From Oribacterium sp. oral taxon 078 str. F0262 (GTDB lineage: Bacteria > Bacillota > Clostridia > Lachnospirales > Lachnospiraceae), in the NCBI RefSeq assembly GCF_000160135.1, contig NZ_GG729938.1, forward strand, positions 4,414 to 68,413: a stretch of DNA of 64,000 bases, given 5' to 3'. Shown here in pieces: positions 18,931 to 44,326 of the stretch. A program made the position numbers and the translations under genes. Within the stretch, counting starts at the first letter, position 1; every line of letters starts with the position of its first letter. The notes under the pieces are model-generated. The model was not told where the DNA came from. It saw only the letters and a list, made by a program, of their open reading frames with translations, and did no database searches.

Positions 18931-18991
18931 AAGCAAAGAGCCATCGGAAAGAATCATGCACTAAATCCAATGCATGGTTCTTTCTTTGCTT
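18931..18991 (+). terminator. Long hairpin terminating glmS
   Basis: An inner stem AAAGAATCATGCA (18948-18960) / TGCATGGTTCTTT (18971-18983) has one G-T pair. An outer stem AAGCAAAG (18931-18938) / CTTTGCTT (18984-18991) extends it. The 3' arm is T-rich. It separates glmS from the rnf promoter. Confidence 0.6.
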
Positions 18992-19018
18992 GTCGGAAGA
19001 ATTTTTCTCATCTATAAT
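18990..19018 (+). promoter_or_regulatory. rnf operon promoter
   Basis: TTGTCG (18990-18995), 17-bp spacer, TATAAT (19013-19018); rnfC starts 43 bases later. The -35 box overlaps the end of the glmS terminator hairpin. Confidence 0.7.
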
Positions 19019-19060
19019 GATAAAAAGAGTCTGCGGAATCATATTTGGGAGGTATCAAAG

Positions 19061-20431
19061 ATGGGTATTTCCACTTTCAAGGGCGGAGTCCACCCCTACG
19101 ACGGCAAGGAGCTCGCGATGGGGGAGGCGATCCGGGAAATCAGGCCGAAGGGGACCATGGTCTATCCCTTGTCCCAGCATATCGGCGCGCCCGCAAAGCC
19201 CGTGGTGCAAAAGGGGGACAAGGTTCTGGTCGGACAGACGATAGCGGAGGCCGGCGGATTCATTTCCGCGCCGGTCATAAGCTCCGTCTCGGGGAGCGTG
19301 AAGGCGATTGAGAAGAGACTGACGCCGGGCGGTGTCATGGCGGAGTCCATCCTCATTGAGAGCGACCAGAACGACGAGAAGATTCCGGGCTTCGGGGAGA
19401 AGCGCGATTACAAATCTCTCAGCAGAGAGGAGATTGTCTCCATTGTGAGGGATGCGGGGATCGTGGGGCTTGGGGGAGCGGGATTTCCGACTGCGGTGAA
19501 GCTCTCTCCGAAGGAGCCGGAGAAGATCGACTATTTTCTTGTAAACGGCGCGGAGTGCGAGCCGTATCTGTGCTCGGACTACCGGGATATGCTGGAGTAT
19601 CCGGAGCGCCTGATCGGCGGTCTTCGCGTGCTGCTCCGCCTCTTTCCGAATGCGGCGGGGAAGATCTGCATCGAGGACAACAAGCCGGAGGCGATCAGGA
19701 AGCTGTCGGAGCTTGTGAAGTCGGAGGACAGGATGGAGGTCCTGTCCCTCCGAACGAGATATCCCCAGGGGGGAGAGCGGCAGCTCATCTACGCGGCGAC
19801 AGGGCGGAAAATCAACTCCTCCATGCTCCCCGCGGACGCGGGAGTGGTGGTAGACAATGTGGACACCGTGATCGCGATCTACGACGCGGTCTGCGAATCC
19901 ATGCCGCTCGTCCGGAGGATACTCACGGTGACGGGGGACGCGGTGGTGAAGCCCGGGAATTTCCGGGTGCCGCTCGGCATAAGCTATCAGGAGATTATCG
20001 ATGCCGCGGGGGGCTTTAAGGAGGATCCGGAGAAGGTCATCTCCGGCGGCCCCATGATGGGGGTTCCTCTCTTTAAGCTCGATGTGCCGCTTGTGAAAAA
20101 TTCAAGCTCCATCCTGGCCTTTTTGAAGGATCCGGTCTCCGCGGAGCCGACGACAGCCTGCATCAACTGCGGGAGATGCGTCTCCGCCTGTCCGGAGAAT
20201 TTGATGCCGACTCTCATGATGCAGTCGGCTTTAAGAAAAGATACCGCCCGTTTTACGAAGCTATATGGGATGGAATGCATCGAGTGCGGATGCTGCTCCT
20301 ATGTCTGTCCGGCGAAGCGCCCCCTGACACAGGGCTTTAAGGAAATGAAGCGAAGGGTGAATGCGGAGCGGAGAGCTGCTGCCATGAAGGCGCGGGAAGC
20401 GGAAGGGAAGAAAGAGGGGGAAAAGAAATGA
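19061..20431 (+). CDS. rnfC: Rnf complex subunit C (NADH-binding, Fe-S)
   Basis: 456 residues. It begins MGISTFKGGVHPYDGKELAM after GGGAGG. It has the Complex I 51-kDa-like FMN/NADH fold with GLGGAGFPTAVKLSP and AECEPYLCSDYRDMLEYPE. Two [4Fe-4S] ferredoxin motifs lie near the C-terminus (CINCGRCVSACPENL and CIECGCCSYVCPAKRP). RnfC is the cytosolic NAD(H) site of the ferredoxin:NAD+ oxidoreductase. It is the first gene of rnfCDGEAB, and its stop overlaps rnfD by ATGA. Confidence 0.97.
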   Translation: MGISTFKGGVHPYDGKELAMGEAIREIRPKGTMVYPLSQHIGAPAKPVVQKGDKVLVGQTIAEAGGFISAPVISSVSGSVKAIEKRLTPGGVMAESILIESDQNDEKIPGFGEKRDYKSLSREEIVSIVRDAGIVGLGGAGFPTAVKLSPKEPEKIDYFLVNGAECEPYLCSDYRDMLEYPERLIGGLRVLLRLFPNAAGKICIEDNKPEAIRKLSELVKSEDRMEVLSLRTRYPQGGERQLIYAATGRKINSSMLPADAGVVVDNVDTVIAIYDAVCESMPLVRRILTVTGDAVVKPGNFRVPLGISYQEIIDAAGGFKEDPEKVISGGPMMGVPLFKLDVPLVKNSSSILAFLKDPVSAEPTTACINCGRCVSACPENLMPTLMMQSALRKDTARFTKLYGMECIECGCCSYVCPAKRPLTQGFKEMKRRVNAERRAAAMKAREAEGKKEGEKK

Positions 20432-21372
20432 AAATGCTGAATCTCTCTGCGAATCCTCATATAAGAGACAGGATCAGCACCGCGGAGATCATGCGGGATG
20501 TCGTGATCGCCATGCTGCCGACCGCGATCTACGGCGTGATGCAGTGGGGCTTAAACGCCGCCCTCGTCATCGTCTTCACCACTGCGGCCGCAGTTCTTAC
20601 GGAGTATCTCTATGAGCTGTGCATGAAGTTCCCGAACACGGTGAAGGACTGGTCCGCCGCGGTCACGGGGCTGATCCTCGCCCTGAACTGTCCGCCGGAT
20701 ATCCCGCTTTGGATGCCGGTGGTCGGGGCGGTCTTCGCGATCCTCGTCGTAAAGCAGCTCTACGGCGGTCTGGGAAGAAACTTCATGAATCCGGCCCTTG
20801 CGGCCCGCTGCTTTCTCCTGATCTCCTTTGCGGGACCGATGACGAAGTTCCGGGGAGTCGGGGCGGATGCGGTCTCCTCCGCGACGCCGCTCGCCCTGAT
20901 GAAGGCGGATCCCGCGGCGGTGCAGAGCCTTCGCACTCTTTTCCTGGGGCAGATCCCGGGGACGATCGGCGAGGTCTCGAAGCTCTGCCTCCTGATCGGG
21001 GCGCTCTATCTCATACTGAGAAGAGTGATCTCCCCAAAGATTCCGCTCATCTATATCGGGACCGTCGCGCTGTTCACGCTTCTCTTCGGGGGAAGAGGCT
21101 TTGACCTCCATTATGTGCTCGCGGAAATCCTCGGGGGAGGCCTGATCTTCGGGGCCTTCTTCATGGCGACCGATTATGTCACGGGGCCGATCACGCCGAA
21201 GGGTCAGATCATCTTCGCGCTGATCCTCGGGCTTCTCACCGGGCTCTTCCGCCTCTTCGGCGGCTCCGCCGAGGGCGTGTCCTACGCGATTATCCTGACG
21301 AATATCCTTGTGCCCGTGATCAATGAAAAAACGATTCCGAAGGCTTTCGGAAGGGAGGGAGAGAAGTCATGA
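20428..21372 (+). CDS. rnfD: Rnf complex subunit D (flavin-binding membrane subunit)
   Basis: 314 residues with about nine membrane helices (NqrB family). The covalent-FMN motif is visible as DAVSSATPLALMK, where the Thr would carry FMN by a phosphoester bond. The flavin is added by ApbE; an apbE gene is present at 43184. Starts inside the rnfC stop codon and overlaps rnfG by four bases, so the operon is translationally coupled. Confidence 0.96.
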   Translation: MKMLNLSANPHIRDRISTAEIMRDVVIAMLPTAIYGVMQWGLNAALVIVFTTAAAVLTEYLYELCMKFPNTVKDWSAAVTGLILALNCPPDIPLWMPVVGAVFAILVVKQLYGGLGRNFMNPALAARCFLLISFAGPMTKFRGVGADAVSSATPLALMKADPAAVQSLRTLFLGQIPGTIGEVSKLCLLIGALYLILRRVISPKIPLIYIGTVALFTLLFGGRGFDLHYVLAEILGGGLIFGAFFMATDYVTGPITPKGQIIFALILGLLTGLFRLFGGSAEGVSYAIILTNILVPVINEKTIPKAFGREGEKS

Positions 21373-22001
21373 AGAAGGATTCCTTTGTCAAGGACGCAAT
21401 CGTCCTGACTGCCATCACCCTGGTCTCCGGACTTCTCCTCGGCGGAGTTTACGGCCTCACGAAGCAGAGAATCTATGAGGCGAATATGGCGTCCACGATC
21501 GAGTCCTACCACAAGGTGATGGACGCGGAGAGCTACGATGAGGAGAGCCTGGCGGACGCTCTTGAAAAAGCGAAAACGGACGGAACGATCTCTGCGGACA
21601 ACGGCGGGGCGGAGCTTCTCTCCGCTGTCGCCGCAAAAGACGCGGGAGGAGAGGCGATCGGCTATATCGTGAAAGGGCAGGCGGCCGGCTACGGAGGGAA
21701 TGTCATCGTGGTCGTCGGAGTGAGCCCGGACCTGAAGGTCTCCGGGATCTCCTTTCCGGAGACGCTTCCGGAGACGGCGGGGCTCGGGCAGAAGGCCACG
21801 GAGCCGGAATTCTATAAGCAGTTCGCGGGAAAGGGCACGAAGCTTTCCGTGAAGAAGGGCGGAGGCGCCGGGGAGAATGAGATCGATGCGATCTCCGGGG
21901 CCACGATCACGAGCACCGCTGTCACGAATACGGTAAACGCCGCGACACAGTTTATCGGGGACTATGTCCTGGAGCAGGGAGGAGGCGGGAAGAATGGATA
22001 A
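21369..22001 (+). CDS. rnfG: Rnf complex subunit G (covalent FMN)
   Basis: 210 residues: one N-terminal membrane anchor (about 7-30) and an exported FMN-binding domain. The flavinylation site is DAISGATITSTAV near residue 175, the SGAT motif of NqrC/RnfG in which Thr takes FMN from ApbE. It passes electrons between the membrane subunits on the outer face. Overlaps both neighbours. Confidence 0.96.
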   Translation: MKKDSFVKDAIVLTAITLVSGLLLGGVYGLTKQRIYEANMASTIESYHKVMDAESYDEESLADALEKAKTDGTISADNGGAELLSAVAAKDAGGEAIGYIVKGQAAGYGGNVIVVVGVSPDLKVSGISFPETLPETAGLGQKATEPEFYKQFAGKGTKLSVKKGGGAGENEIDAISGATITSTAVTNTVNAATQFIGDYVLEQGGGGKNG

Positions 22002-22953
22002 ATATACGGAAAGGATTTATAACGGCATCGTAAAGGAAAATCCGACCTTCGTCATCATGCTCGGCATGTGTCCGACACTTGCGACGACGACCAGCGCTCT
22101 GAACGGACTCGGCATGGGTCTGTCCACGACCGCGGTCTTGATGTTTTCCAACCTTTTGATCTCGGTGCTCCGGAAGATCATACCGGATCGGATGCGGCTC
22201 CCCGGAGAGATTGTCGTAGTGGCCTCACTCGTTACGATCGTTCAGCTTTTGATCCAGGCCTATGTGCCCTGGCTCTATGAGGCGCTCGGCATCTATATCC
22301 CGCTGATCGTAGTGAACTGCATCATCCTCGGGAGGGCGGAGGCCTATGCGCTCTCCCATGAGCCGATGCTCTCCTTCATGGACGGTCTTGGGATGGGAAT
22401 CGGCTTTACCCTCGCGCTCACGGTGATCGGAGCGGTCCGGGAAATCATCGGCGCCGGAACGATCTTTAATTTCCGCCTGATCCCGGAGGCCTTCAGCATC
22501 AACATCTTTGTCCTTGCGCCCGGCGCCTTCCTGGTGCTCGCGGTGCTCACGGCGATTCAGAACAAGCTAAAGCTCCCCTCTGCGACAAACGGGGACGCTC
22601 CGGCGGACTTTGTCTGCGCAGGAAACTGCATGGGCTGCTTTGCCTCCTGTGAGAGCAGGGAGCCTAAGAGCGCTGCGAAGCCTAAGGCAGAGGAGAAGCC
22701 GGCCTCCCAGAAGAAGGAAAGCGCCGCTGTCCCTGCTTCGGAGGGCGCGAAGGAGGAAGTACAGAAGCCCGCGGGGCGCTCCCGTTTAAGACCCGGGAGC
22801 CGGAAGGCGGAGAGCTCCTCCGAAGCGCAGGCAGAAGGAAGCGAGAAGGAGGAGAGTAAACAGCCGGAGAATAAGGACGGCGGGAAGCAGCAGGCAGACA
22901 GCGCGGATAAGGGCTCTGATCTTAAGGAGAGTCCGATCGGAAGGGAGGGATAA
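21994..22953 (+). CDS. rnfE: Rnf complex subunit E with an unusual Cys-containing charged tail
   Basis: 319 residues, against about 200-230 for ordinary RnfE. Residues 1-195 are the six-helix NqrD/RnfE core (NPTFVIMLGMCPTLATTTSA, INIFVLAPGAFLVLAVLTAI). A four-Cys motif C-x3-C-x2-C-x3-C follows (Cys 208, 212, 215, 219; CAGNCMGCFASC). About 100 residues of Lys/Glu/Ala/Ser-rich, probably disordered sequence complete it. The core works with RnfA in ion and electron transfer. The tail's role is unknown: it might bind a metal or docking partner. The start at MDKYTER is set by GGAGGAGGCGGG; it overlaps the rnfG end by 8 bases. Confidence 0.93.
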   Translation: MDKYTERIYNGIVKENPTFVIMLGMCPTLATTTSALNGLGMGLSTTAVLMFSNLLISVLRKIIPDRMRLPGEIVVVASLVTIVQLLIQAYVPWLYEALGIYIPLIVVNCIILGRAEAYALSHEPMLSFMDGLGMGIGFTLALTVIGAVREIIGAGTIFNFRLIPEAFSINIFVLAPGAFLVLAVLTAIQNKLKLPSATNGDAPADFVCAGNCMGCFASCESREPKSAAKPKAEEKPASQKKESAAVPASEGAKEEVQKPAGRSRLRPGSRKAESSSEAQAEGSEKEESKQPENKDGGKQQADSADKGSDLKESPIGREG

Positions 22954-22955
22954 GG

Positions 22956-23570
22956 ATGCTGGGGCTTTTACTGATAGCAATCAAATATTCTCTGGTCAGC
23001 AATGTGGTGCTTTCCCAGTTCCTGGGAATCTGCCCCTTCCTCGGCGTCTCGAAGAAGACGGAGTCCTCGAAGGGAATGGGGGGAGCCGTGATTTTCGTCA
23101 TCGCGATTGCCTCCGTTGTCACCCATGCGATCTATATCCTCTTCCTGAAGGCCTCGGGGCCGCTCTGCAGGGCGCTTGGGCTGAAGGACGGGCTGGAGTT
23201 TCTGAACACGATCGTCTTCATCCTCGTGATCGCGGCTTTGGTCCAGTTTGTGGAGATGTTCCTGAAGAAAAATATCCCCTCTCTCTATGAGTCGCTCGGC
23301 GTCTACCTTCCGCTCATCACGACAAACTGCGCGGTGCTCGGCGTCGCGCTGAACAATGTGACCTATGGCTATAATTTCATCGAGTGCCTGGTCTATGGGA
23401 TCGGGATCTCCGTCGGCTTCGCTCTGGCCCTTCTTCTTATGGCCGGGATCCGTGAAAATATCATCGCGGACAATGACGGGATTCCCCATGCCTTTCAGGG
23501 CTCCCCGATCGTGCTCATCACCGCAAGCCTCATGGCGATCGCCTTTTTCGGCTTCAGCGGTATGATTTAA
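22956..23570 (+). CDS. rnfA: Rnf complex subunit A
   Basis: 204 residues, six membrane helices, with the NqrE/RnfA signatures NVVLSQFLGICPFLGVSKK and PLITTNCAVLGVALNN. The conserved Cys in FLGICPF and TTNC are those that, with RnfE Cys, hold the intramembrane Fe-S centre in this family. Its Shine-Dalgarno lies in the last codons of rnfE. Confidence 0.97.
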   Translation: MLGLLLIAIKYSLVSNVVLSQFLGICPFLGVSKKTESSKGMGGAVIFVIAIASVVTHAIYILFLKASGPLCRALGLKDGLEFLNTIVFILVIAALVQFVEMFLKKNIPSLYESLGVYLPLITTNCAVLGVALNNVTYGYNFIECLVYGIGISVGFALALLLMAGIRENIIADNDGIPHAFQGSPIVLITASLMAIAFFGFSGMI

Positions 23571-27715: not shown

Positions 27716-29257
27716 ATGGAATTAAAGCCAGAAAAGATTTCGGAGGTCATCCGAAGTCAGATCAAATATTATGAGAATGCCATCATCCAGAATGAGACCG
27801 GAACGGTCCTGACCGTCGGAGACGGGATCGCGAGGGTCAGCGGCCTGACGAACTGCATGTCGGGGGAGCTTCTGGAGTTTCAGGACGGCACTTATGGTAT
27901 GGCGCAGAACCTGGAGGAGACCAGCGTGTCCGCAGTGCTTTTCGGCTCGGACGTCGGGATCCAGGAGGGACAGACCGCAAAGCGCACCGGAAGAGTGGTC
28001 TCGGTGCCCGTGGGAGAGGCCATGATCGGCCGCGTCGTCAATGCGATTGGACAGCCGATCGATGGAGCGGGCCCGATCGAGAGCAGTGAGTTCCGCGCGG
28101 TGGAGAGTCCCGCCCCCGGCATCATCAAGCGGCAGCCTGTCAAGGAGCCGCTCCAGACCGGCATCAAGGCCATTGACTCCATGATTCCGATCGGAAGAGG
28201 GCAGAGAGAGCTGATCATCGGGGACCGTCAGACCGGAAAGACGACGATTGCGATCGATACCATCATAAATCAGAAGGGGAAGGACGTCCTCTGCATCTAC
28301 GTGGCCATCGGTCAGAAGAGATCGACCGTGACCGCTCTTGTGAACGAGCTGAAGGAGGCGGGGGCGATGGATTATTCCATCGTCGTTGCGGCGACGGCCT
28401 CCGAGCCGAGCCCGCTTCAGTACATCGCCCCCTACTCGGGTTGCGCGATGGGGGAGTACTTCATGAATCAGGGGAAGCATGTCCTGATTATCTACGATGA
28501 CCTCTCGAAGCACGCGGTCGCCTACCGTGCGATCTCCCTTCTGATCCGGAGACCGCCCGGGAGAGAGGCCTATCCCGGAGATGTCTTCTATCTGCACTCC
28601 AGACTGCTGGAGAGAGCGGCGAAGCTTTCCGAGGAGATGGGGGGAGGGAGCCTCACGGCGCTTCCGATCATCGAGACACAGGCGGGCGATGTCTCCGCCT
28701 ATATTCCGACCAATGTCATTTCCATCACGGACGGACAGATCTTTCTGGAGACCGAGCTCTTCCACAGCGGCATCATGCCGGCCGTAAATCCCGGCATCTC
28801 CGTCTCCCGTGTGGGAGGAAACGCGCAGATCAAGGCGATGAAAAAGGTCGCGGGTACCCTGAAGCTCGTTTACTCCCAGTACCGGGAGCTTCAGAGCTTC
28901 GCGCAGTTTGGCTCCGATCTCGACGCGGACACCAAGGCGCGTCTTGCGCAGGGAGAGCGGATCGTGGAGGTTCTGAAGCAGGGCAAGTCCTCTCCGGTTT
29001 CGGTGGAGAAGCAGGTCGCGATCCTCTATGCCGTGGTAAAGGATGTTCTCAGCTCTGTCGAAGTCAGAGATATCCATGACTATGAAGAGGAGCTCTTCTC
29101 CTACCTCGATTCGGATGCCGACGGGCTCTATGCCATGGAGGAGATCCGAAAGAGCGGAAAGCTCGAGGAGGAGAGCGAGAAGAGACTCAAGGCTGCTCTT
29201 CTCCGTTTCACGGAGGACTTTACGGCGAGAAAGGCCGCTGAGCGGGACGCGAAGTAA
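27716..29257 (+). CDS. atpA: ATP synthase subunit alpha
   Basis: 513 residues. The P-loop is [13 protein letters not shown], and the family signature [18 protein letters not shown] is intact. Non-catalytic nucleotide-binding subunit of F1. A fairly weak ribosome site (AAAGGATGGG) precedes it. Confidence 0.97.
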
Positions 29258-37344: not shown

Positions 37345-38217
37345 TTGGATATCATAAAGGCGAAGGTCTTTTTACATGCGGTGGATTCCGGCAGTCTGGC
37401 CAATGCGGCCGCGCAGTTTGATTATACACCCTCTGCGATCAGTCATATGATGATGGCACTCGAATCGGAGGTGGGCTTTCCTCTCCTGATCCGGACAAAG
37501 AGCGGCGTCACTCCGACCAGGAATGCGGAGAGACTGATCCCGATTCTCCGGGCGCAGTGCAGCTTTGAGGAGCAGTTTCGTCAAATGGTATCGGAGATCC
37601 ATGGCCTCAGCAGCGGGGAGCTCAGGATCGCATCCTACGCAAGCATCGCCTGTCAGTGGCTTCCCTCCGTGATATCGCGCTTTCACGCGGATTATCCGGG
37701 GATCCGGATCGAGATCATGGAGGGGGTCTGGCAGGATCTGGACTCCTATCTCAGGGAAAACCGGGCGGATCTCGCGTTTTTCAGCCATCAGCCCTCCCTC
37801 CCCTACCACTGGATTTTTTTGAAGAGGGATCCCATGGTGGTGGCGGTCTCCTGCTCTCACCCTCTTGCGTCCCGCTCCTCTATCTCCCTGCGGGAGCTGG
37901 AGAAGGAGACGCTTATCATGCCGGCTTACGGGGCAGATCTCGACGTTGAGAACCTGCTTCGATCCCGGGATCTGAAAATCCACAGCACTATCTCAACGAT
38001 CCAGAATTATTCCGCGATGGGCCTGGTAGAGCAGGGGCTCGGAGTTCTCATCATGAATGAGCTCATTACGAAGGGAAGACTCAACCATCTCTGCCTTCTC
38101 CCTCTGGATCCTCCGCAGTATATCAAGCTGGGGATCGCGGTCAGCGATTTGAACCGCAGTTCTCCGGCGGCGCAGCGTTTTATCAGCTACGCGAAGGAAA
38201 TCATCCCAAAGCTTTAA
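37345..38217 (+). CDS. LysR-family transcriptional regulator
   Basis: 290 residues. The N-terminal winged helix (DIIKAKVFLHAVDSGSLANA...TPSAISHMMMALESEVGFPL) and effector-binding domain (ELRIASYASIACQWLPSVIS..., LVEQGLGVLIMNEL) are intact. The start is a TTG six bases after GAGAGGTG; an upstream in-frame TTG at 37249 would add a region foreign to the family. It lies immediately before the grdX/component-B genes in the same direction, but is separated from them by a terminator. It may regulate them; that is inference from position. Confidence 0.88.
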   Translation: MDIIKAKVFLHAVDSGSLANAAAQFDYTPSAISHMMMALESEVGFPLLIRTKSGVTPTRNAERLIPILRAQCSFEEQFRQMVSEIHGLSSGELRIASYASIACQWLPSVISRFHADYPGIRIEIMEGVWQDLDSYLRENRADLAFFSHQPSLPYHWIFLKRDPMVVAVSCSHPLASRSSISLRELEKETLIMPAYGADLDVENLLRSRDLKIHSTISTIQNYSAMGLVEQGLGVLIMNELITKGRLNHLCLLPLDPPQYIKLGIAVSDLNRSSPAAQRFISYAKEIIPKL

Positions 38218-38634: not shown

Positions 38635-39057
38635 ATGGAGAAAATCTATCTGCTTCTCAGCAATAATCCGATGGCGGCGGAGAAATACCGGGAGGACCGG
38701 GACATTGAGCTTTCCTACCATGAGGAGGACAGCTTCCGGGACGTCCTCGTCCGGGCGAGGGATCTGATCCACCGGGGCTGGCATCTGATGACGCATCCCC
38801 AGGCGAGCAATCTGAAGCCGAATCAGTGTCCCTATAAGACGGTCTTTCTCTCGAAGGGGAGAGCCGCGGAGTCCGAGGAGCGGGAGATCGAGCTGATCGA
38901 GGCGGCCATCGCGGCCGTGGACAAGTTTACCAGGGGGATGCAGGCACCGCGCTGGACGGAGAAGGCGCTCCGGGATTTTCAGACGGTTGACCTTTCGGTC
39001 ATCGAATCCGCTCTGAACAGCTCGCTTCTCCACCAGATGATACTGAATCATCAATAA
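38635..39057 (+). CDS. grdX: GrdX family protein
   Basis: 140 residues: MEKIYLLLSNNPMAAEKYRE, then RARDLIHRGWHLMTHPQASN and LKPNQCPYKTVFLSKG, the conserved core of GrdX. GrdX is a small cytosolic protein encoded with glycine, sarcosine and betaine reductase genes in amino-acid-fermenting Clostridia; its biochemical role is unknown. ATG follows AAGGAGGACGGGG. Probably the first gene of the component-B operon. Confidence 0.9.
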   Translation: MEKIYLLLSNNPMAAEKYREDRDIELSYHEEDSFRDVLVRARDLIHRGWHLMTHPQASNLKPNQCPYKTVFLSKGRAAESEEREIELIEAAIAAVDKFTRGMQAPRWTEKALRDFQTVDLSVIESALNSSLLHQMILNHQ

Positions 39058-39142
39058 AATCCGTTCTTTAACCCAGCCGGGGTTATAGATATAGAGGAAC
39101 CATGGAAACAGTTTCTTGAAAGCCAAGGAGGGTTTTTAATGT

Positions 39143-40429
39143 ATGAAGCTTGAACTGGGAAAAATCCATATCCACGATGTGAAATTCGGAGAGAAGACGG
39201 AGATTCGCTCCGGCGTTCTCTATGTCAATGCGGATGAGCTTCGGGAGCTGGTGCTCCGGGATGATCGTCTGATCGACTGCCATGTGGAGCTCGCCCATCC
39301 CGGGGAGTCTGTCCGCATCACGCCGGTGAAGGACGTCATCGAGCCCCGACTCAAGGTTGAGGGCCCGGGCGTGGTCTTCCCCGGTGTCATGGGAAAGGTC
39401 ACGGAGGTCGGACACGGAAAGACCTACTGCATGGACGGCCTCTGCGTCGTCACGGTCGGAAAGATCGTGGGCTTCCAGGAGGGAGTCATCGACATGAGCG
39501 GGCCTGCGGCGGAGTACTGCCCCTTCTCGAAGACGCAGAATGTCTGTGTCGTGATCGAGCCGAAGGAGGGTCTGGAGACCCATGTCTATGAGAGCGCGGG
39601 CCGCATGGCGGGACTCAGCGCTGCGACCTATCTCGCGAAGGCTCTGAAGGATCAGACGCCGGATGAGACCGAGGTCTTCGAGACAAAGCCGCTCCTGGAG
39701 CAGGCAGCGCAGTATCCGGATCTTCCGAGAGTCGGATATATCCACATGCTGCAGAGCCAGGGACTCCTCCACGATACCTACTACTACGGTGTGGACGCGA
39801 AGCAGATCGTGCCGACCATCATGTATCCGGAGGAGATTTTCGACGGAGCCATCATCTCCGGAAACTGCGTGGCGCCCTGTGACAAGGTGACGACCTACCA
39901 TCACCTTCATAATCCGGTCATCGAGGATCTCTTCCGGCAGCACGGAAAGACCGTGAACTTCATGGGTGTGATCCTGACCAACGAGAATGTCTTCCTGATG
40001 GATAAGGAGAGACATTCCGATATGACCTCGAAGCTCTGCGAGTATCTGGGGCTCGAGGGAGTGCTCCTCACGGAGGAGGGCTACGGCAATCCGGATACCG
40101 ATCTCATGATGAACTGCAAGAAGACGACGCAGCGCGGGACGAAGGTCGTTATCATCACCGACGAATTCCCCGGGAGAGACGGAAAGTCCTATTCCCTCGC
40201 GGACGTGTGCAAGGAGGCGGATACCATGATCTCCTGCGGAAACGGAAATGTGGTCATCCACTTCCCGGCGATGGATCGGCTCATCGGCACGCAGGACTTT
40301 ATCGAGATGCAGATCGGCGGCTGGGTCGGATGCAAGAACGAGGACGGAAGCTTCGACGCGGAGATTCAGATCATCATCGCCTCTACCATCGCGAACGGCT
40401 TCAACAAGCTCTGCGCGAGAGGGTATTAA
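39143..40429 (+). CDS. Reductase component B proprotein (GrdE/GrdG/GrdI type, pyruvoyl)
   Basis: 428 residues, family length. It starts MKLELGKIHIHDVKFGEKTE. The self-cleavage site is visible at SGNCVAPCDK, where Cys242 would become the N-terminal pyruvoyl group of the larger fragment after Asn241-Cys242 cleavage. With the selenoprotein downstream it forms substrate-specific component B, which binds the amine as a Schiff base. Which of glycine, sarcosine, betaine or another amine is used cannot be told by eye. A five-codon overlapping ATG (39139) stands between the AGGAGGG site and this start. Confidence 0.92.
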   Translation: MKLELGKIHIHDVKFGEKTEIRSGVLYVNADELRELVLRDDRLIDCHVELAHPGESVRITPVKDVIEPRLKVEGPGVVFPGVMGKVTEVGHGKTYCMDGLCVVTVGKIVGFQEGVIDMSGPAAEYCPFSKTQNVCVVIEPKEGLETHVYESAGRMAGLSAATYLAKALKDQTPDETEVFETKPLLEQAAQYPDLPRVGYIHMLQSQGLLHDTYYYGVDAKQIVPTIMYPEEIFDGAIISGNCVAPCDKVTTYHHLHNPVIEDLFRQHGKTVNFMGVILTNENVFLMDKERHSDMTSKLCEYLGLEGVLLTEEGYGNPDTDLMMNCKKTTQRGTKVVIITDEFPGRDGKSYSLADVCKEADTMISCGNGNVVIHFPAMDRLIGTQDFIEMQIGGWVGCKNEDGSFDAEIQIIIASTIANGFNKLCARGY

Positions 40430-40508
40430 GGAAGTGCCGCGGGGCCGGGCGGGCCGGAAAAGCGCGCCCCGGGACTTTTCGGAACTTTTGAGAGGAAGGA
40501 GATAGAAT

Positions 40509-41824
40509 ATGGCAAAAAAATAGTTCATTATATCAACCAGTTCTTCGCCGGTATCGGCGGCGAGGAGAAGGCGGACATCGCCCCGGAGCTGAGAGAGGGA
40601 GCGATCGGACCCGGACTCGCCCTTCAGAAGGAGCTGGGGGAGGATTTCCAGATCGTCGCGACGGTGATCTGCGGTGACAACTACTTTGGCTCTCATATCG
40701 AGAGCGGCGTGGTGGATGAGATTCTCGAACTCATCCGTCCCCTCAGCCCGGATGCCTTCGTGGCGGGACCTGCCTTCAATGCGGGGCGCTACGGCGTGGC
40801 CTGCGGCACGATGGCGAAGGCCGTGCAGGATGCGCTCTCGATCCCGGTCGTGAGCGGAATGTACCGGGAGAACCCGGGCGTCGACATGTTCCGGAAGGAC
40901 ATATACATCATCGAGACGAAGGATTCCTCCGCGGATATGCGGAATGCGGCGCCGAAGATGGCGAAGCTTCTGAAAAAGCTTGTAAACGGCGAGGAAGTGC
41001 TCGGACCGAAGGAGGAGGGATACCTTGAGAAGGGGATCCGTGTCAACTACTTCAATGAGCGCCGGGGATCGGAGAGAGCGGTGGAGCTTCTCGTCCGGAA
41101 AATAAAGGGAGAGGAGACCTATACGGATTATCCGATGCCGGTCATCGATCATGTGGCTCCGGCTCCGCCTCTTAAGGATCTTTCGAAGGCGAAGATCGCG
41201 CTCATCACCTCCGGCGGCGTCGTGCCCCAGGGGAACCCGGACCATATCGAGTCCTCCTCCGCGACGAAGTGGGGCAAGTACTCGATCGCGGGCATGGATC
41301 ACGCGGACAAGAAGGATTTCATGACGATCCACGGAGGCTACGACCGGGCCTTCATCACGGAGGATCCGGACCTGTGCATCCCGGTCGATGCGCTCCGGAA
41401 GCTGGAGAAGGAAGGTGTGATCGGAAAGCTCACGGACTACTTCATCACCACCACCGGAACCGGTACGGCGACCAATTCCTCGAAGCGCTTTGCGGAGGAG
41501 TATATCCCGCTCTTAAAGGAGGACGGAGTCGACGCGGTTTTGATGGTAAGTACGTGAGGAACCTGTACTAGATGCGGTGCATCTATGGTTAAGGAAATTG
41601 ATCGCGCAGGAATCCCGGTTGTGCATGTGTGTACGGTTGTCCCGATCTCTCTCACGATCGGTGCGAACCGGATTGTCCCGGCTATCGGCATCCCCTATCC
41701 GCTGGGAAATCCGACTCTCGGAGAGAAGAAGAGCTATGAGATCCGGGAAGGGCTTGTGAGGCGTGCGCTGAAGACGCTGACAGTCCCGGTCGAGGAGCAG
41801 ACAGTCTTCGAGGAAGATTTTTAA
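40509..41824 (+). CDS. Selenocysteine-containing component B subunit (GrdB/GrdF/GrdH type)
   Basis: 438 residues if an in-frame TGA at 41555-41557 is read as selenocysteine and the N-terminal frame is corrected. The TGA sits in MVST-U-GTCTRCGASMV, the family's UxxCxxC redox motif, at residue 350. The downstream HVCTVVPISLTIGANRIVPA to the TAA at 41824 is fully conserved in style. Near the start, ATG-GCA-AAA-AAA meets TAG; removing the shift gives MAKK-IVHYINQFFAGIGGEE, the family N-terminus. The subunit transfers the carboxymethyl unit onto the selenol of GrdA. The A7 run is either an error, a phase-variable tract or a frameshift site. Confidence 0.93.
41558..41591 (+). promoter_or_regulatory. 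Bacterial SECIS-like hairpin
   Basis: Twelve bases after the TGA a perfect stem AGATGC (41570-41575) / GCATCT (41579-41584) closes a GGT loop. A lower helix AACC (41560-41563) / GGTT (41587-41590) extends it. The spacing and the G-T in the loop match SelB-dependent bacterial SECIS elements, which must lie just 3' of the UGA inside the coding sequence. Confidence 0.8.
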
Positions 41825-41839
41825 AGGGGGGCAATATAT

Positions 41840-41879
41840 CGCACTCTTCCCCTCTGAGGGATCAGCGGGGAAGAGTGCG
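41840..41879 (+). promoter_or_regulatory. Strong hairpin between the selenoprotein and the permease genes
   Basis: CGCACTCTTCCCC (41840-41852) pairs perfectly with GGGGAAGAGTGCG (41867-41879). No T run follows, so full termination is unlikely. It could protect the upstream mRNA from 3' decay or set relative expression. Confidence 0.55.
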
Positions 41880-41932
41880 TTCCGACCGCCCCGTGGACCC
41901 CGGAATCCTCTCCGGGACAGGAAAGGGATGAC

Positions 41933-43027
41933 ATGGACGGGAAAAAACGAAATTTAATGGCGATTATCGGATTCTGCGGGGCCTGTATCGCGTTTTACAT
42001 CGGCGCGGGCTTTGCGACCATGCAGGAGGTCATGCAGTACGAGGCCTCCTATGGCTCCCAGCTTCCGATCGTGATCGCCGTAATCTCTGTAATTTATATT
42101 TACACGAATCTCTCCTTCGCAACCAACGGCTCCCGGCTTCAGATCCAGAGGGGCGGTGACATCTATAAGCATTACTGCGGAAAGTATATCGGGAGCTTTT
42201 ACGACTATTTTTCGGCATTCTTCTGCTATATGTGCTTTATCGTCATGTGCGGCGGAGCCAATTCCACGGCCTCGCAGCAGTGGGGACTTCCAAACGGCGT
42301 GGGCGCCGTGATTCTGACCATTGCTGTCATCGCCACCGCAATCTTCGGTCTCGACGGGATTCTGAATGCTCTCGGGAAGCTGGGGCCGCTCATCATCGTC
42401 ATCATCATCGTGGTCTCCGCGGCTTCTCTTTTTACGGGAGGCGGGAATTTCCAGGAGAATCTGCAGGCGGTGGACGCGGGGAAATATGAGCTTGCCCAGG
42501 TCGGAGGGGGAAATCCCTTCGCATCGGGTGCTTCCTACGGGGGCTTCGTAATCCTCTGGTTTGCCTCCTTCCTCTCGGAGGTCGGAGCGAAGAACAAGCT
42601 CTCTGAGGTCAACGCGGGCATGCTTCTCTCCACCGTTTTCATCATGGGGACCGCGGTTCTCGCGAGCGTCGCGCTGATTATGCATATTGATATGACGGCC
42701 ACCGCGGATATTCCGGCCCTGGTCCTCGCGGCCAGAGTCTCGCCGCTTCTCGCCCAGGCACTCGCTGTCATCATCTTCTGCGGAATCTATACGACTTCCG
42801 TGCCGCTGCTTTGGACCGGCGTGGGAAGAGTGGCGACGGAGGGCACGAAGAAGTACAAGCTCCTGACTGTCATAGGAGGAGCTGTCGGATGCATTATCGC
42901 CTGCTTCCTCCCCTATAAGGGACTTGTCAATATCCTCTATGGGATGAACGGTTATCTGGGATTTCTCCTGATCGCCTTCATGCTGGTCTATGATATCCGA
43001 AGCAGGATGAGCAGCAAAAAGATCTGA
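41933..43027 (+). CDS. YkvI-like multi-pass membrane transporter
   Basis: 364 residues with about ten membrane helices. IIGFCGACIAFYIGAGFATM with a GxGFATxQE-like motif (GAGFATMQEVMQY) and FLSEVGAKNKLSEVNAGMLL resemble the YkvI group of the amino acid/polyamine transporter superfamily. By position, five bases short of 110 after the selenoprotein and in the same direction, it is a candidate importer for the amine reduced by component B. Substrate not known. Confidence 0.75.
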   Translation: MDGKKRNLMAIIGFCGACIAFYIGAGFATMQEVMQYEASYGSQLPIVIAVISVIYIYTNLSFATNGSRLQIQRGGDIYKHYCGKYIGSFYDYFSAFFCYMCFIVMCGGANSTASQQWGLPNGVGAVILTIAVIATAIFGLDGILNALGKLGPLIIVIIIVVSAASLFTGGGNFQENLQAVDAGKYELAQVGGGNPFASGASYGGFVILWFASFLSEVGAKNKLSEVNAGMLLSTVFIMGTAVLASVALIMHIDMTATADIPALVLAARVSPLLAQALAVIIFCGIYTTSVPLLWTGVGRVATEGTKKYKLLTVIGGAVGCIIACFLPYKGLVNILYGMNGYLGFLLIAFMLVYDIRSRMSSKKI

Positions 43028-43183: not shown

Positions 43184-44326
43184 GTGAAAGATTCCGTGAA
43201 ATATCTGGCTCCCCGAAGGAAGAGGGGGGCCTTTTTCTCTCTTTTTCTCCGCTTTTTTCTCTGCCTTTCTCTGCTCGTCCTTCTCCCCGGATGCGGGAGG
43301 AGCACTCCTTCTCTTCAGCGCTTTCAGTCGCAGTTTATGGATGTCTTCGACACGGTTTCTGTGCTGACAGGCTATGACAGGGACGAGAAGAGCTTTCAGG
43401 AGAAGGCGGAGGCGGTGCATAAGGAGCTCCGCGACTGCCATGCGCTCTTCGATATCTATGACGATTACGAGGGCGTAGTGAATCTGAAGACCGTAAATGA
43501 GAGAGCGGGGCAGGGTCCCGTGAAGGTGGACGGCCGGATCATCGAGCTCCTGAAATTCGGGAAGGAAATCTATCGCCTCACGGGGGGGAAGGTCAATATC
43601 GCCTACGGCGCGGTTCTCTCTCTCTGGCATGAGAAGAGGGAGGAGGGGATCGCGGATCCGGAGCATGCCTCCCTTCCGGAGGAGGACGTGCTCTTAGAAG
43701 CGTCGAAGCACTGCCGGATCGAGGATATTGTGATCGATGAGGACGCCTCCACGGTCGCTCTCATGGATCCGAAGATGAGCCTCGATGTCGGCGGAATCGC
43801 AAAGGGCTACGCCGTACAGAGGGCGGGAGAAAGGGCCGCAGAGCTCGGCGCGAAGAGCTTTCTTCTCAATATCGGGGGGAATCTGAAGGCGATCGGCCGG
43901 AAGCCGGATGGGGAGAAGTGGATCTGCCCTGTGGAGAGCCCCTTTTACATCGACAGCGGAGAAGGGGAGAGGTATGCGCTTACGACGGGGCTTTCGGAGC
44001 TCTCCCTCGTCACAAGCGGGGACTATGAGCGCTATTATATGGTGAACGGCGAGAGGTATCACCATATCGTGGATCCGGATACGCTTTATCCCGGAAAGCT
44101 TCACCGGAGCGTCACGATCCTGACGGCGGATTCGGGACTTGCAGATGCGCTCTCCACCGCGCTTTTTCTCATGAGCCGGGAGGAGGGAGAGGCACTCCTT
44201 CGGAGGATCCGGGAGGAGCATTTCCGCGGCCTCTCGGAGGGGGATGCGCTGGAAGCGATGTGGGTGGAAAATGACGGCGAAAAGCCGATGACGCAGGGCT
44301 TTTCGAAATATCTCCTCCCGGACTGA
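43184..44326 (+). CDS. apbE: FAD:protein FMN transferase (lipoprotein ApbE)
   Basis: 380 residues starting with GTG after AAGGAGGATTTTCT. A lipoprotein signal ends LLVLLPGCGRS. The ApbE core shows SLDVGGIAKGYAVQRAGERA, FLLNIGGNLKAIGRKP, and the late metal-binding DSGLADALSTALFLM. It cleaves FAD and attaches FMN to Thr of SGAT-type sites on the outer face of the membrane. Clear clients in this window are RnfG (SGATITS) and RnfD (SSATPLA). It has its own promoter, so it need not be in the grd operon. Confidence 0.95.
   Translation: MKDSVKYLAPRRKRGAFFSLFLRFFLCLSLLVLLPGCGRSTPSLQRFQSQFMDVFDTVSVLTGYDRDEKSFQEKAEAVHKELRDCHALFDIYDDYEGVVNLKTVNERAGQGPVKVDGRIIELLKFGKEIYRLTGGKVNIAYGAVLSLWHEKREEGIADPEHASLPEEDVLLEASKHCRIEDIVIDEDASTVALMDPKMSLDVGGIAKGYAVQRAGERAAELGAKSFLLNIGGNLKAIGRKPDGEKWICPVESPFYIDSGEGERYALTTGLSELSLVTSGDYERYYMVNGERYHHIVDPDTLYPGKLHRSVTILTADSGLADALSTALFLMSREEGEALLRRIREEHFRGLSEGDALEAMWVENDGEKPMTQGFSKYLLPD

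Follow-up and report, generated by a model that had tools for sequence, protein, structure and literature searches.

P. acidaminophilum can use sarcosine as its sole energy and carbon source, and its genome contains two glycine, two sarcosine and one betaine reductase clusters (PMC4056300). The genome of P. litorale contains two glycine clusters, one betaine cluster and one sarcosine cluster (PMC4118067). Sarcosine modules that are split from the shared components, or that have a regulator of their own, are also known. In Clostridium sp. FS41, sarcosine is obtained from N-methylhydantoin, and the sarcosine-specific B genes are separate from those for components A and C (PMC4417704). In Clostridioides, the sarcosine-specific component B genes grdGF (CD1740-CD1741 in strain 630) lie next to a regulator and are controlled by SarR and SarS with sigma-54 (PMC7438776, PMC6615313). 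The cluster described here lies in a stretch of 64,000 nucleotides (the window) from Oribacterium sp. oral taxon 078 str. F0262. It is composed of a LysR-family regulator gene, grdX, grdG, grdF and a permease gene. Very probably, GrdG and GrdF form the component B of sarcosine reductase that is specific for sarcosine, accompanied by GrdX, a permease dedicated to the module and a LysR regulator. Clusters of this kind are already known from other anaerobes, and the present one adds a member.

The comparison with P. acidaminophilum DSM 3953 (NZ_CP007453.1) is based on its megaplasmid sarcosine cluster alone. This cluster has the same order, grdX-grdG-grdF-permease. Its GrdG is 70.6% identical to that of the window, with the same cleavage-site context. 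The gene after its grdF, annotated as a hypothetical protein, encodes a member of the same permease family (37.5% identical; 534 bits to a profile built here). Upstream, P. acidaminophilum has a sigma-54 dependent regulator and a gene whose product has solute-binding and histidine-kinase domains, whereas the window has LysR. The grdGF genes of Clostridioides likewise differ from the window by two-component sigma-54 control, and this permease family is absent from the stretch examined around the C. difficile locus (L082). The locus of Hespellia stercorisuis DSM 15480 (L037) shows LysR-grdX-grdG-grdF-permease in the order and orientation seen in the window, with 87% identity for GrdG, 84% for GrdF and 73% for the permease. 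Unlike in the window, grdF is in one frame in P. acidaminophilum and starts in frame in Hespellia.

Placement of GrdG and GrdF

GrdG of the window scored 885 bits against the NCBIfam model sarcosine_GrdG NF040793 (cut-off 780) and 642 bits against Pfam PF09338. On NF040793, its paralogues in the same genome scored 658 (GrdE) and 315 (GrdI), and in P. litorale one glycine-type copy scored 648 and the betaine-type copy 361. The profile scores for grdX, GrdG, the selenoprotein, its hairpin and LysR are all far above chance level.

The relatives used were the best 80 of 99 loci from a scan of species-representative genomes. The trees of GrdG and GrdF are quick trees, with support from the Shimodaira-Hasegawa-like approximate likelihood ratio test (SH-aLRT) only. 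In the first GrdG tree (104 rows), the window and P. litorale (L096) belong to a fork of 62 rows (SH-aLRT 99), with GrdE and GrdI of this genome outside. Inside this clade, the window falls in a subclade of seven rows (SH-aLRT 100). For the second tree (103 rows), the long-branch rows L133 and L140 were removed and GrdG of P. acidaminophilum was added. Here, the window and P. acidaminophilum are in a fork of 60 rows (SH-aLRT 99), and the next fork, of 63 rows (SH-aLRT 100), takes in the P. litorale group; GrdE and GrdI of this genome are again outside. P. litorale has four full-length PF09338 genes in addition to partial PrdA-type matches. The four are placed as two glycine-type, one betaine-type and one sarcosine-type copy, which agrees with the cluster counts of its genome paper (PMC4118067). 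[Clostridium] citroniae (L046), also within the sarcosine clade, has a single match of the GrdG family in its genome; strain FS41 is presumably close to this species.

The selenoprotein body matched PF07355 (448 bits on the fragment scanned). In the GrdF tree (96 rows), the window and 59 sarcosine-type rows form a fork of 60 rows (SH-aLRT 99), and GrdB and GrdH of this genome are outside. This tree agrees with the GrdG tree for P. litorale; GrdF of P. acidaminophilum is not among its rows. The label GrdF rests on the tree, because GrdB of this genome scores nearly equally on the sarcosine and glycine models (699.1 and 698.9) and GrdF stays under the cut-off of its own model.

Two other identities were considered. 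Glycine reductase (GrdE/GrdB) and betaine reductase (GrdI/GrdH) are both rejected, because copies of each are present elsewhere in the genome and neither subunit of the window falls in the respective clades. The glycine clade is where GrdE and GrdB of this genome fall, and its GrdI and GrdH, with a BCCT carrier at L021, fill the betaine role. From the clade and the gene neighbours it can be inferred that sarcosine is the substrate. The initial annotation had called the substrate unknown and had offered sarcosine, glycine or an amine new to this enzyme class. Sarcosine is retained among these; glycine is rejected, and a new amine is not supported. The phylogeny of both subunits with their gene neighbours, proposed there as the refuting comparison, places them in the sarcosine clade with largely the same neighbours.

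The cleavage context of GrdG is SGNCVAPCDK, with Asn-Cys at residues 241-242. The Asn-Cys site of self-cleavage and carbonyl formation is known from GrdE and PrdA, and is presumed to act likewise in GrdG of the window. After the site, the window reads APCDKVTTYHH and P. litorale reads ASCDKIPTYLH. The form APCDKVTT(Y/F) is found in P. acidaminophilum GrdG and in 58 of the 62 clade rows; ASCDKIPTY is found in three rows of the P. litorale type, and one row could not be matched. No solved relative of GrdG was found by sequence search at E <= 0.1.

An in-frame UGA is present in all 96 family members extracted. Immediately 3' of the UGA of the window, the Rfam model RF01990 (SECIS_4) for a selenocysteine insertion sequence (SECIS) matched at 45.7 bits (gathering score 38). 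The apical stem of six pairs is paired in 361 of 366 cells over 61 genes, namely those of the window, P. acidaminophilum and 59 loci, with two cut-off genes skipped. In the window and in loci L035-L039, both sides of two of the six pairs are altered, and the encoded residues go from RCGAT to RCGAS. These two-sided changes fit selection on the RNA hairpin, although they could be one inherited event.

The chemistry of sarcosine reductase allows a mechanism to be proposed. The permease would import sarcosine. GrdG would cleave itself at Asn-Cys and gain a carbonyl group. Together with the selenocysteine of GrdF, it would release methylamine and hand a carboxymethyl group to the selenocysteine of GrdA. 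GrdC and GrdD, encoded elsewhere, would then set acetyl phosphate free, and the reduced state would be restored by the thioredoxin system.

Table 1. Features of the sarcosine reductase cluster (positions in the window)
Feature	Position	Strand	Basis
LysR-family regulator gene	37345..38217	+	PF00126 and PF03466; TTG start taken from sequence
grdX, small conserved accessory gene	38635..39057	+	NF038093, 137 bits (cut-off 40)
grdG, proprotein subunit of sarcosine reductase component B (very probable)	39143..40429	+	NF040793, PF09338, GrdG trees
Asn241-Cys242 of GrdG, presumed self-cleavage and carbonyl-forming site	39863..39868	+	sequence SGNCVAPC, alignment
Ribosome-binding site AGGAAGGAG for the ATG at 40509	40493..40501	+	sequence
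Apparent grdF start: ATG and three codons, then TAG; run of seven A (40514-40520) inside	40509..40523	+	sequence
grdF body, selenoprotein subunit of sarcosine reductase component B (very probable); one UGA read as selenocysteine	40523..41824	+	NF040794, tree
UGA codon for selenocysteine, motif U-G-T-C-T-R-C	41555..41557	+	sequence
Bacterial SECIS hairpin	41558..41595	+	Rfam RF01990 (SECIS_4), 45.7 bits
Permease, predicted APC/LeuT-type fold	41933..43027	+	AlphaFold2 model, PDB matches, neighbour counts, tree

Shared Components Elsewhere in the Genome

The genome is 2.68 Mb in 12 contigs, and the window lies on contig C7. The glycine locus (L020) is on contig C11 and contains grdX, GrdE, GrdB, an AgcS carrier, trxB, trxA, grdA, grdC, grdD, selD and selA. 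It shares with the window grdX followed by homologues of both subunits (60% identical for GrdE and 56% for GrdB) and a carrier. Unlike the window, it has the thioredoxin genes, grdA, grdC, grdD and the sel genes, its carrier is of the AgcS type, and its GrdE is outside the sarcosine clade. The betaine-type locus (L021), on the same contig, contains GrdI, GrdH and a BCCT carrier; the best model for its GrdH is GrdH, at 767 bits against a cut-off of 775. A D-proline-type component B locus on C12 contains PrdA- and PrdB-like genes and selB. The selenocysteine tRNA gene is on C11 (61.5 bits) and is the sole match above the gathering score; each of the 14 control genomes also matched in this search, either under that score or, in five, over it, and only the match above it was used.

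The gene grdA was found once in the genome, on a contig other than that of the window. No grdC, grdD, trx or sel gene was recognized by eye among the open reading frames of at least 100 amino acids in the window, which was not scanned with profiles for them. As components A and C, the thioredoxin system and the selenocysteine machinery are encoded at other loci, the module borrows them. The initial annotation had listed grdX, a GrdE/G/I proprotein and a GrdB/F/H selenoprotein, followed by a permease and preceded by LysR. Profile matches, the UGA and the SECIS hairpin bear out this list. It had further noticed that grdA, grdC, grdD, trx and sel genes are missing beside the module, and had expected a substrate-specific module with borrowed components; the genome search it recommended found every shared part elsewhere. 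One genome thus contains separate glycine, sarcosine, betaine-type and D-proline-type reductase modules, for which one grdA and one set of selenocysteine genes were found.

The selD gene (L020 16700-17810, C11) is apparently a selenoprotein gene itself. It has an in-frame UGA near its start, in TKQSG-UGA-AAKIGP, and resembles selenocysteine-containing SelD in this.

The Permease

Searches of Pfam (E <= 0.1) and NCBIfam (E <= 0.001) gave no match for the permease, and its previous label "YkvI-like" could not be tied to any curated family. No solved relative was found by sequence search at E <= 1. The AlphaFold2 model (mean predicted local distance difference test score, pLDDT, 87.9) is predicted to have the APC/LeuT fold. 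This model had 58 PDB matches at E <= 0.001, and the matches listed include BasC, AdiC, ApcT, AgcS, MhsT and BetP. The Nramp metal and CodB cytosine carriers are also among them, so the fold does not tell the substrate. Among the papers listed for YkvI and for sarcosine reductase with transporters, no title or abstract opening ties this family to sarcosine, which does not prove that no such report exists.

Among 63 sarcosine-type loci, 52 have at least 2 kb of sequence beyond grdF, and 12 of 17 glycine-type loci have the corresponding length. Counted anywhere in the stretch, up to about 8 kb on either side, the permease family is present at 31 of the 52 sarcosine-type loci and at none of the 12 glycine-type loci (Fisher p 1.5e-4, with relatedness ignored). 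The P. litorale locus (L096) also has the permease; it is just under the 2-kb rule and is not one of the 31. Symporters of the sodium:neurotransmitter type are present at seven of the 52 (two have both carriers) and at none of the 12, and 16 of the 52 have neither carrier. The family accompanies sarcosine-type loci across Bacillota and Spirochaetota and in one bin named Synergistaceae. The permeases of the window and L035-L039 form a fork of six rows (SH-aLRT 96), and in the GrdG tree the same six rows also form a group (SH-aLRT 96), which suggests joint movement of carrier and enzyme. Based on the counts at sarcosine-type and glycine-type loci, the permease is likely a carrier of sarcosine, or of sarcosine and glycine. 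The initial annotation had set it apart from the BCCT-type carrier usually linked with betaine reductase; at sarcosine-type loci, where 31 of 52 have it, the family is not unusual.

Alternative Readings

Several observations weigh against the sarcosine assignment or a working module. GrdG of P. litorale scores 739 bits on NF040793, under the cut-off and below the window, and branches outside the fork of 60 rows in the second GrdG tree. The label "grdG" in the P. acidaminophilum record was probably assigned by this NCBIfam model and so is not fully independent; the phenotype and the cluster counts of this organism therefore weigh more than the label. The GrdF body (433 residues) reaches 770 bits on NF040794 (sarcosine_GrdF) and misses the cut-off of 800, although this is still its best NCBIfam model, and the cut-off serves naming and carries no biochemical meaning. 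It also passes the cut-off of the glycine model (630 against 602). No published assay of an enzyme from the subclade of the window was found. Neither creatininase (PF02633) nor an MttB-type methyltransferase (PF06253) was found in the genome, and no internal source of sarcosine was seen in this search, which was limited to creatininase and MttB-type demethylation. The permease family is missing from the stretch examined at 21 of the 52 sarcosine-type loci, and a 72% identical permease ends the glycine reductase operon of a genome of the same genus (G012; L027 1474-2601, minus strand). Lastly, 63 sarcosine-type grdF genes were compared: that of the window, that of P. acidaminophilum and the 61 present at loci L035-L097. 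An in-frame start lies close upstream in 62 of them, and the window is the sole exception. Its grdF looks frame-broken, and the module may be inactive in this strain as a result.

The permease could be a general carrier of glycine and sarcosine or of small amino acids, and not a sarcosine carrier. This is a serious possibility, though a doubtful one. The permease in G012 is sister to the six sarcosine-linked permeases (SH-aLRT 100), and in that genome only GrdB and a PrdB-like match were found, with no GrdF or GrdG. The permeases linked to grd genes do not form one clade against 13 others, three changes being needed in the permease tree. In addition, two of the four plasmid-borne members examined adjoin amino-acid enzyme genes (a serine ammonia-lyase and an aminotransferase), and two do not. 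Against a general carrier, the family is absent from the 12 glycine-type loci counted above, and is present at one of 17 once five glycine-type loci from further genomes are added. The glycine and betaine-type loci of this genome have carriers of their own, AgcS and BCCT respectively, and the simplest role for the third carrier is to serve the third substrate. A carrier of sarcosine, or of sarcosine and glycine, is still the likelier reading. The family has no Pfam match and is called hypothetical even in the reference sarcosine organism, and its company with sarcosine-type loci makes a sarcosine carrier directly testable.

The break at the start of grdF was overlooked in the initial annotation. 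Downstream of the ribosome-binding site AGGAAGGAG, the ATG at 40509 opens a frame that continues with GCA AAA AAA TAG and is shut after four codons. The conserved body is in a different frame from 40523, across the seven A. Of the two component B subunits, grdF is thus the one without a continuous frame, which could be an assembly error. A sequencing error, a real break or, as an unlikely case, programmed slippage could explain it. The closest GrdG in 397 sampled genomes of the same family is 75% identical. It is rather unlikely, though well within consideration, that a real break at the start has made grdF a pseudogene and silenced sarcosine reduction in this strain. The shut frame, and the lack of an in-frame start in this one gene among 63, would be explained by such a break. 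However, the remaining 433 codons are intact, with a conserved selenocysteine site and SECIS, and the break falls in a short stretch of A, a type of sequence prone to assembly errors. Over their family matches, twelve genes of the other grd, trx, sel and carrier loci of the genome have no internal stop except UGA; only parts of selA and selD were scanned, and ahead of the selD part stands a UGA that fits a selenocysteine codon. These stop-free genes argue against a generally error-rich assembly and do not settle the grdF site.

The initial annotation also suggested that the module handles another N-alkylated glycine or amine, which would make it a shifted relative of GrdG and GrdF. This now seems improbable. 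The subclade of seven rows is distinct inside the sarcosine clade, and the residues after the cleavage site differ from those of P. litorale. Other genes of the GrdB family have been tied to new pathways: fluoroacetate reductase FarE exists as a named NCBIfam model, and finHI is reported to be induced with riboflavin breakdown genes (PMC12934955). However, the cleavage context of the window is the common one of the sarcosine clade, shared with P. acidaminophilum, whose GrdG is in the same fork of 60 rows. The permease and grdX are common to the P. acidaminophilum and P. litorale loci, and the window scores above P. litorale on the sarcosine model. A sarcosine-specific component B is therefore still preferred, and the module called "substrate unknown" is placed in a named pathway. 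Interest now centres on the permease, a candidate carrier of sarcosine, and on the apparent break at the start of grdF.

It is very improbable that grdF is doubly recoded, by a -1 slip on A-AAA-AAA into the conserved frame and a later reading of UGA as selenocysteine: the run is in -1 slippage phase directly before UAG and a strong ribosome-binding site lies 12 bases upstream, which would make slippage a switch on sarcosine reduction, and the RNA structure around the run is nothing special (z-score -0.66).

Regulator and grdX

A relative of the LysR gene (tblastn, E <= 1e-8) was found beside all five loci L035-L039 and, at the same threshold, beside none of L040-L114, although flanks are short at some of these. 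In L035 the relative is 34% identical and on the opposite strand, in L038 it is downstream and on the opposite strand, and L036 has a second, distant LysR. Among the neighbour clusters in L035-L097, named from the sequence by eye, NtrC-like regulators occur at 22 loci and TetR-like regulators at 15. The neighbourhood suggests that LysR controls the operon. Since control of C. difficile grdGF by SarR is known, a regulator of its own is nothing new for such a module, and LysR is a local variant. Upstream of grdX at six loci, the search for a conserved LysR site gave one 10-mer, TGTGACAAAC, near-matched in four of the six with one mismatch allowed and no chance level computed.

GrdX belongs to a neighbour cluster that is present at 47 of the 63 related loci. 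Its predicted structure is confident (pLDDT 88.8) and had no PDB match at E <= 0.001. An internal stop codon is present over the matched stretch of the grdX frames of L039 (7550-7951), L042 (393-776) and L071 (7579-7971). These copies could be pseudogenes, errors or alignment gaps.

Distribution

The closest GrdG relatives (85-88% identical; among the best 80 of 99 loci) are in records named Synergistaceae, Clostridia, Hespellia, Acidaminococcaceae and Eubacteriales. Four of the five closest records are bins assembled from metagenomes and could be misnamed. In the family of the window itself, 14 of 397 genomes, including that of the window, have a GrdG copy of at least 68% identity, and besides the window none is above 75%; the sarcosine type of these 14 copies was assigned by identity alone. 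Subject to correct naming of these bins, this distribution points to horizontal transfer of the cassette.

Sarcosine fermentation bears on the formation of methylamine and acetate in anaerobic communities. Sarcosine also arises from betaine. Another source is the breakdown of creatine and creatinine (PMC5364220). The same paper cites a sarcosine reductase purified from Tissierella creatinophila, an organism whose genes are not among the loci compared here. Related genes, MttB-like as judged by eye, lie upstream of sarcosine-type modules at two related loci (L060 6599-7615 and L061 1988-3448). They could perhaps link betaine demethylation to sarcosine reduction.

Neighbouring Genes

After the permease, an ApbE-family gene (PF02424) lies at 43184-44326 on the plus strand. 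The Rnf complex requires an ApbE-type flavin transferase, and this gene may serve Rnf instead of the sarcosine module. RnfC, RnfD and RnfA genes, above the NCBIfam cut-offs, lie at 18974-23567 on the plus strand, about 15 kb upstream of the cluster. Likely RnfG and RnfE genes between them were assigned by eye, and the RnfG candidate had no NCBIfam match at E <= 1e-30. Genes for F0F1 ATP synthase follow from about 26662, with atpA at 27716-29257 and the remaining ones recognized by eye. Rnf and F0F1 ATP synthase are energy-conserving partners known in amino-acid fermenters.

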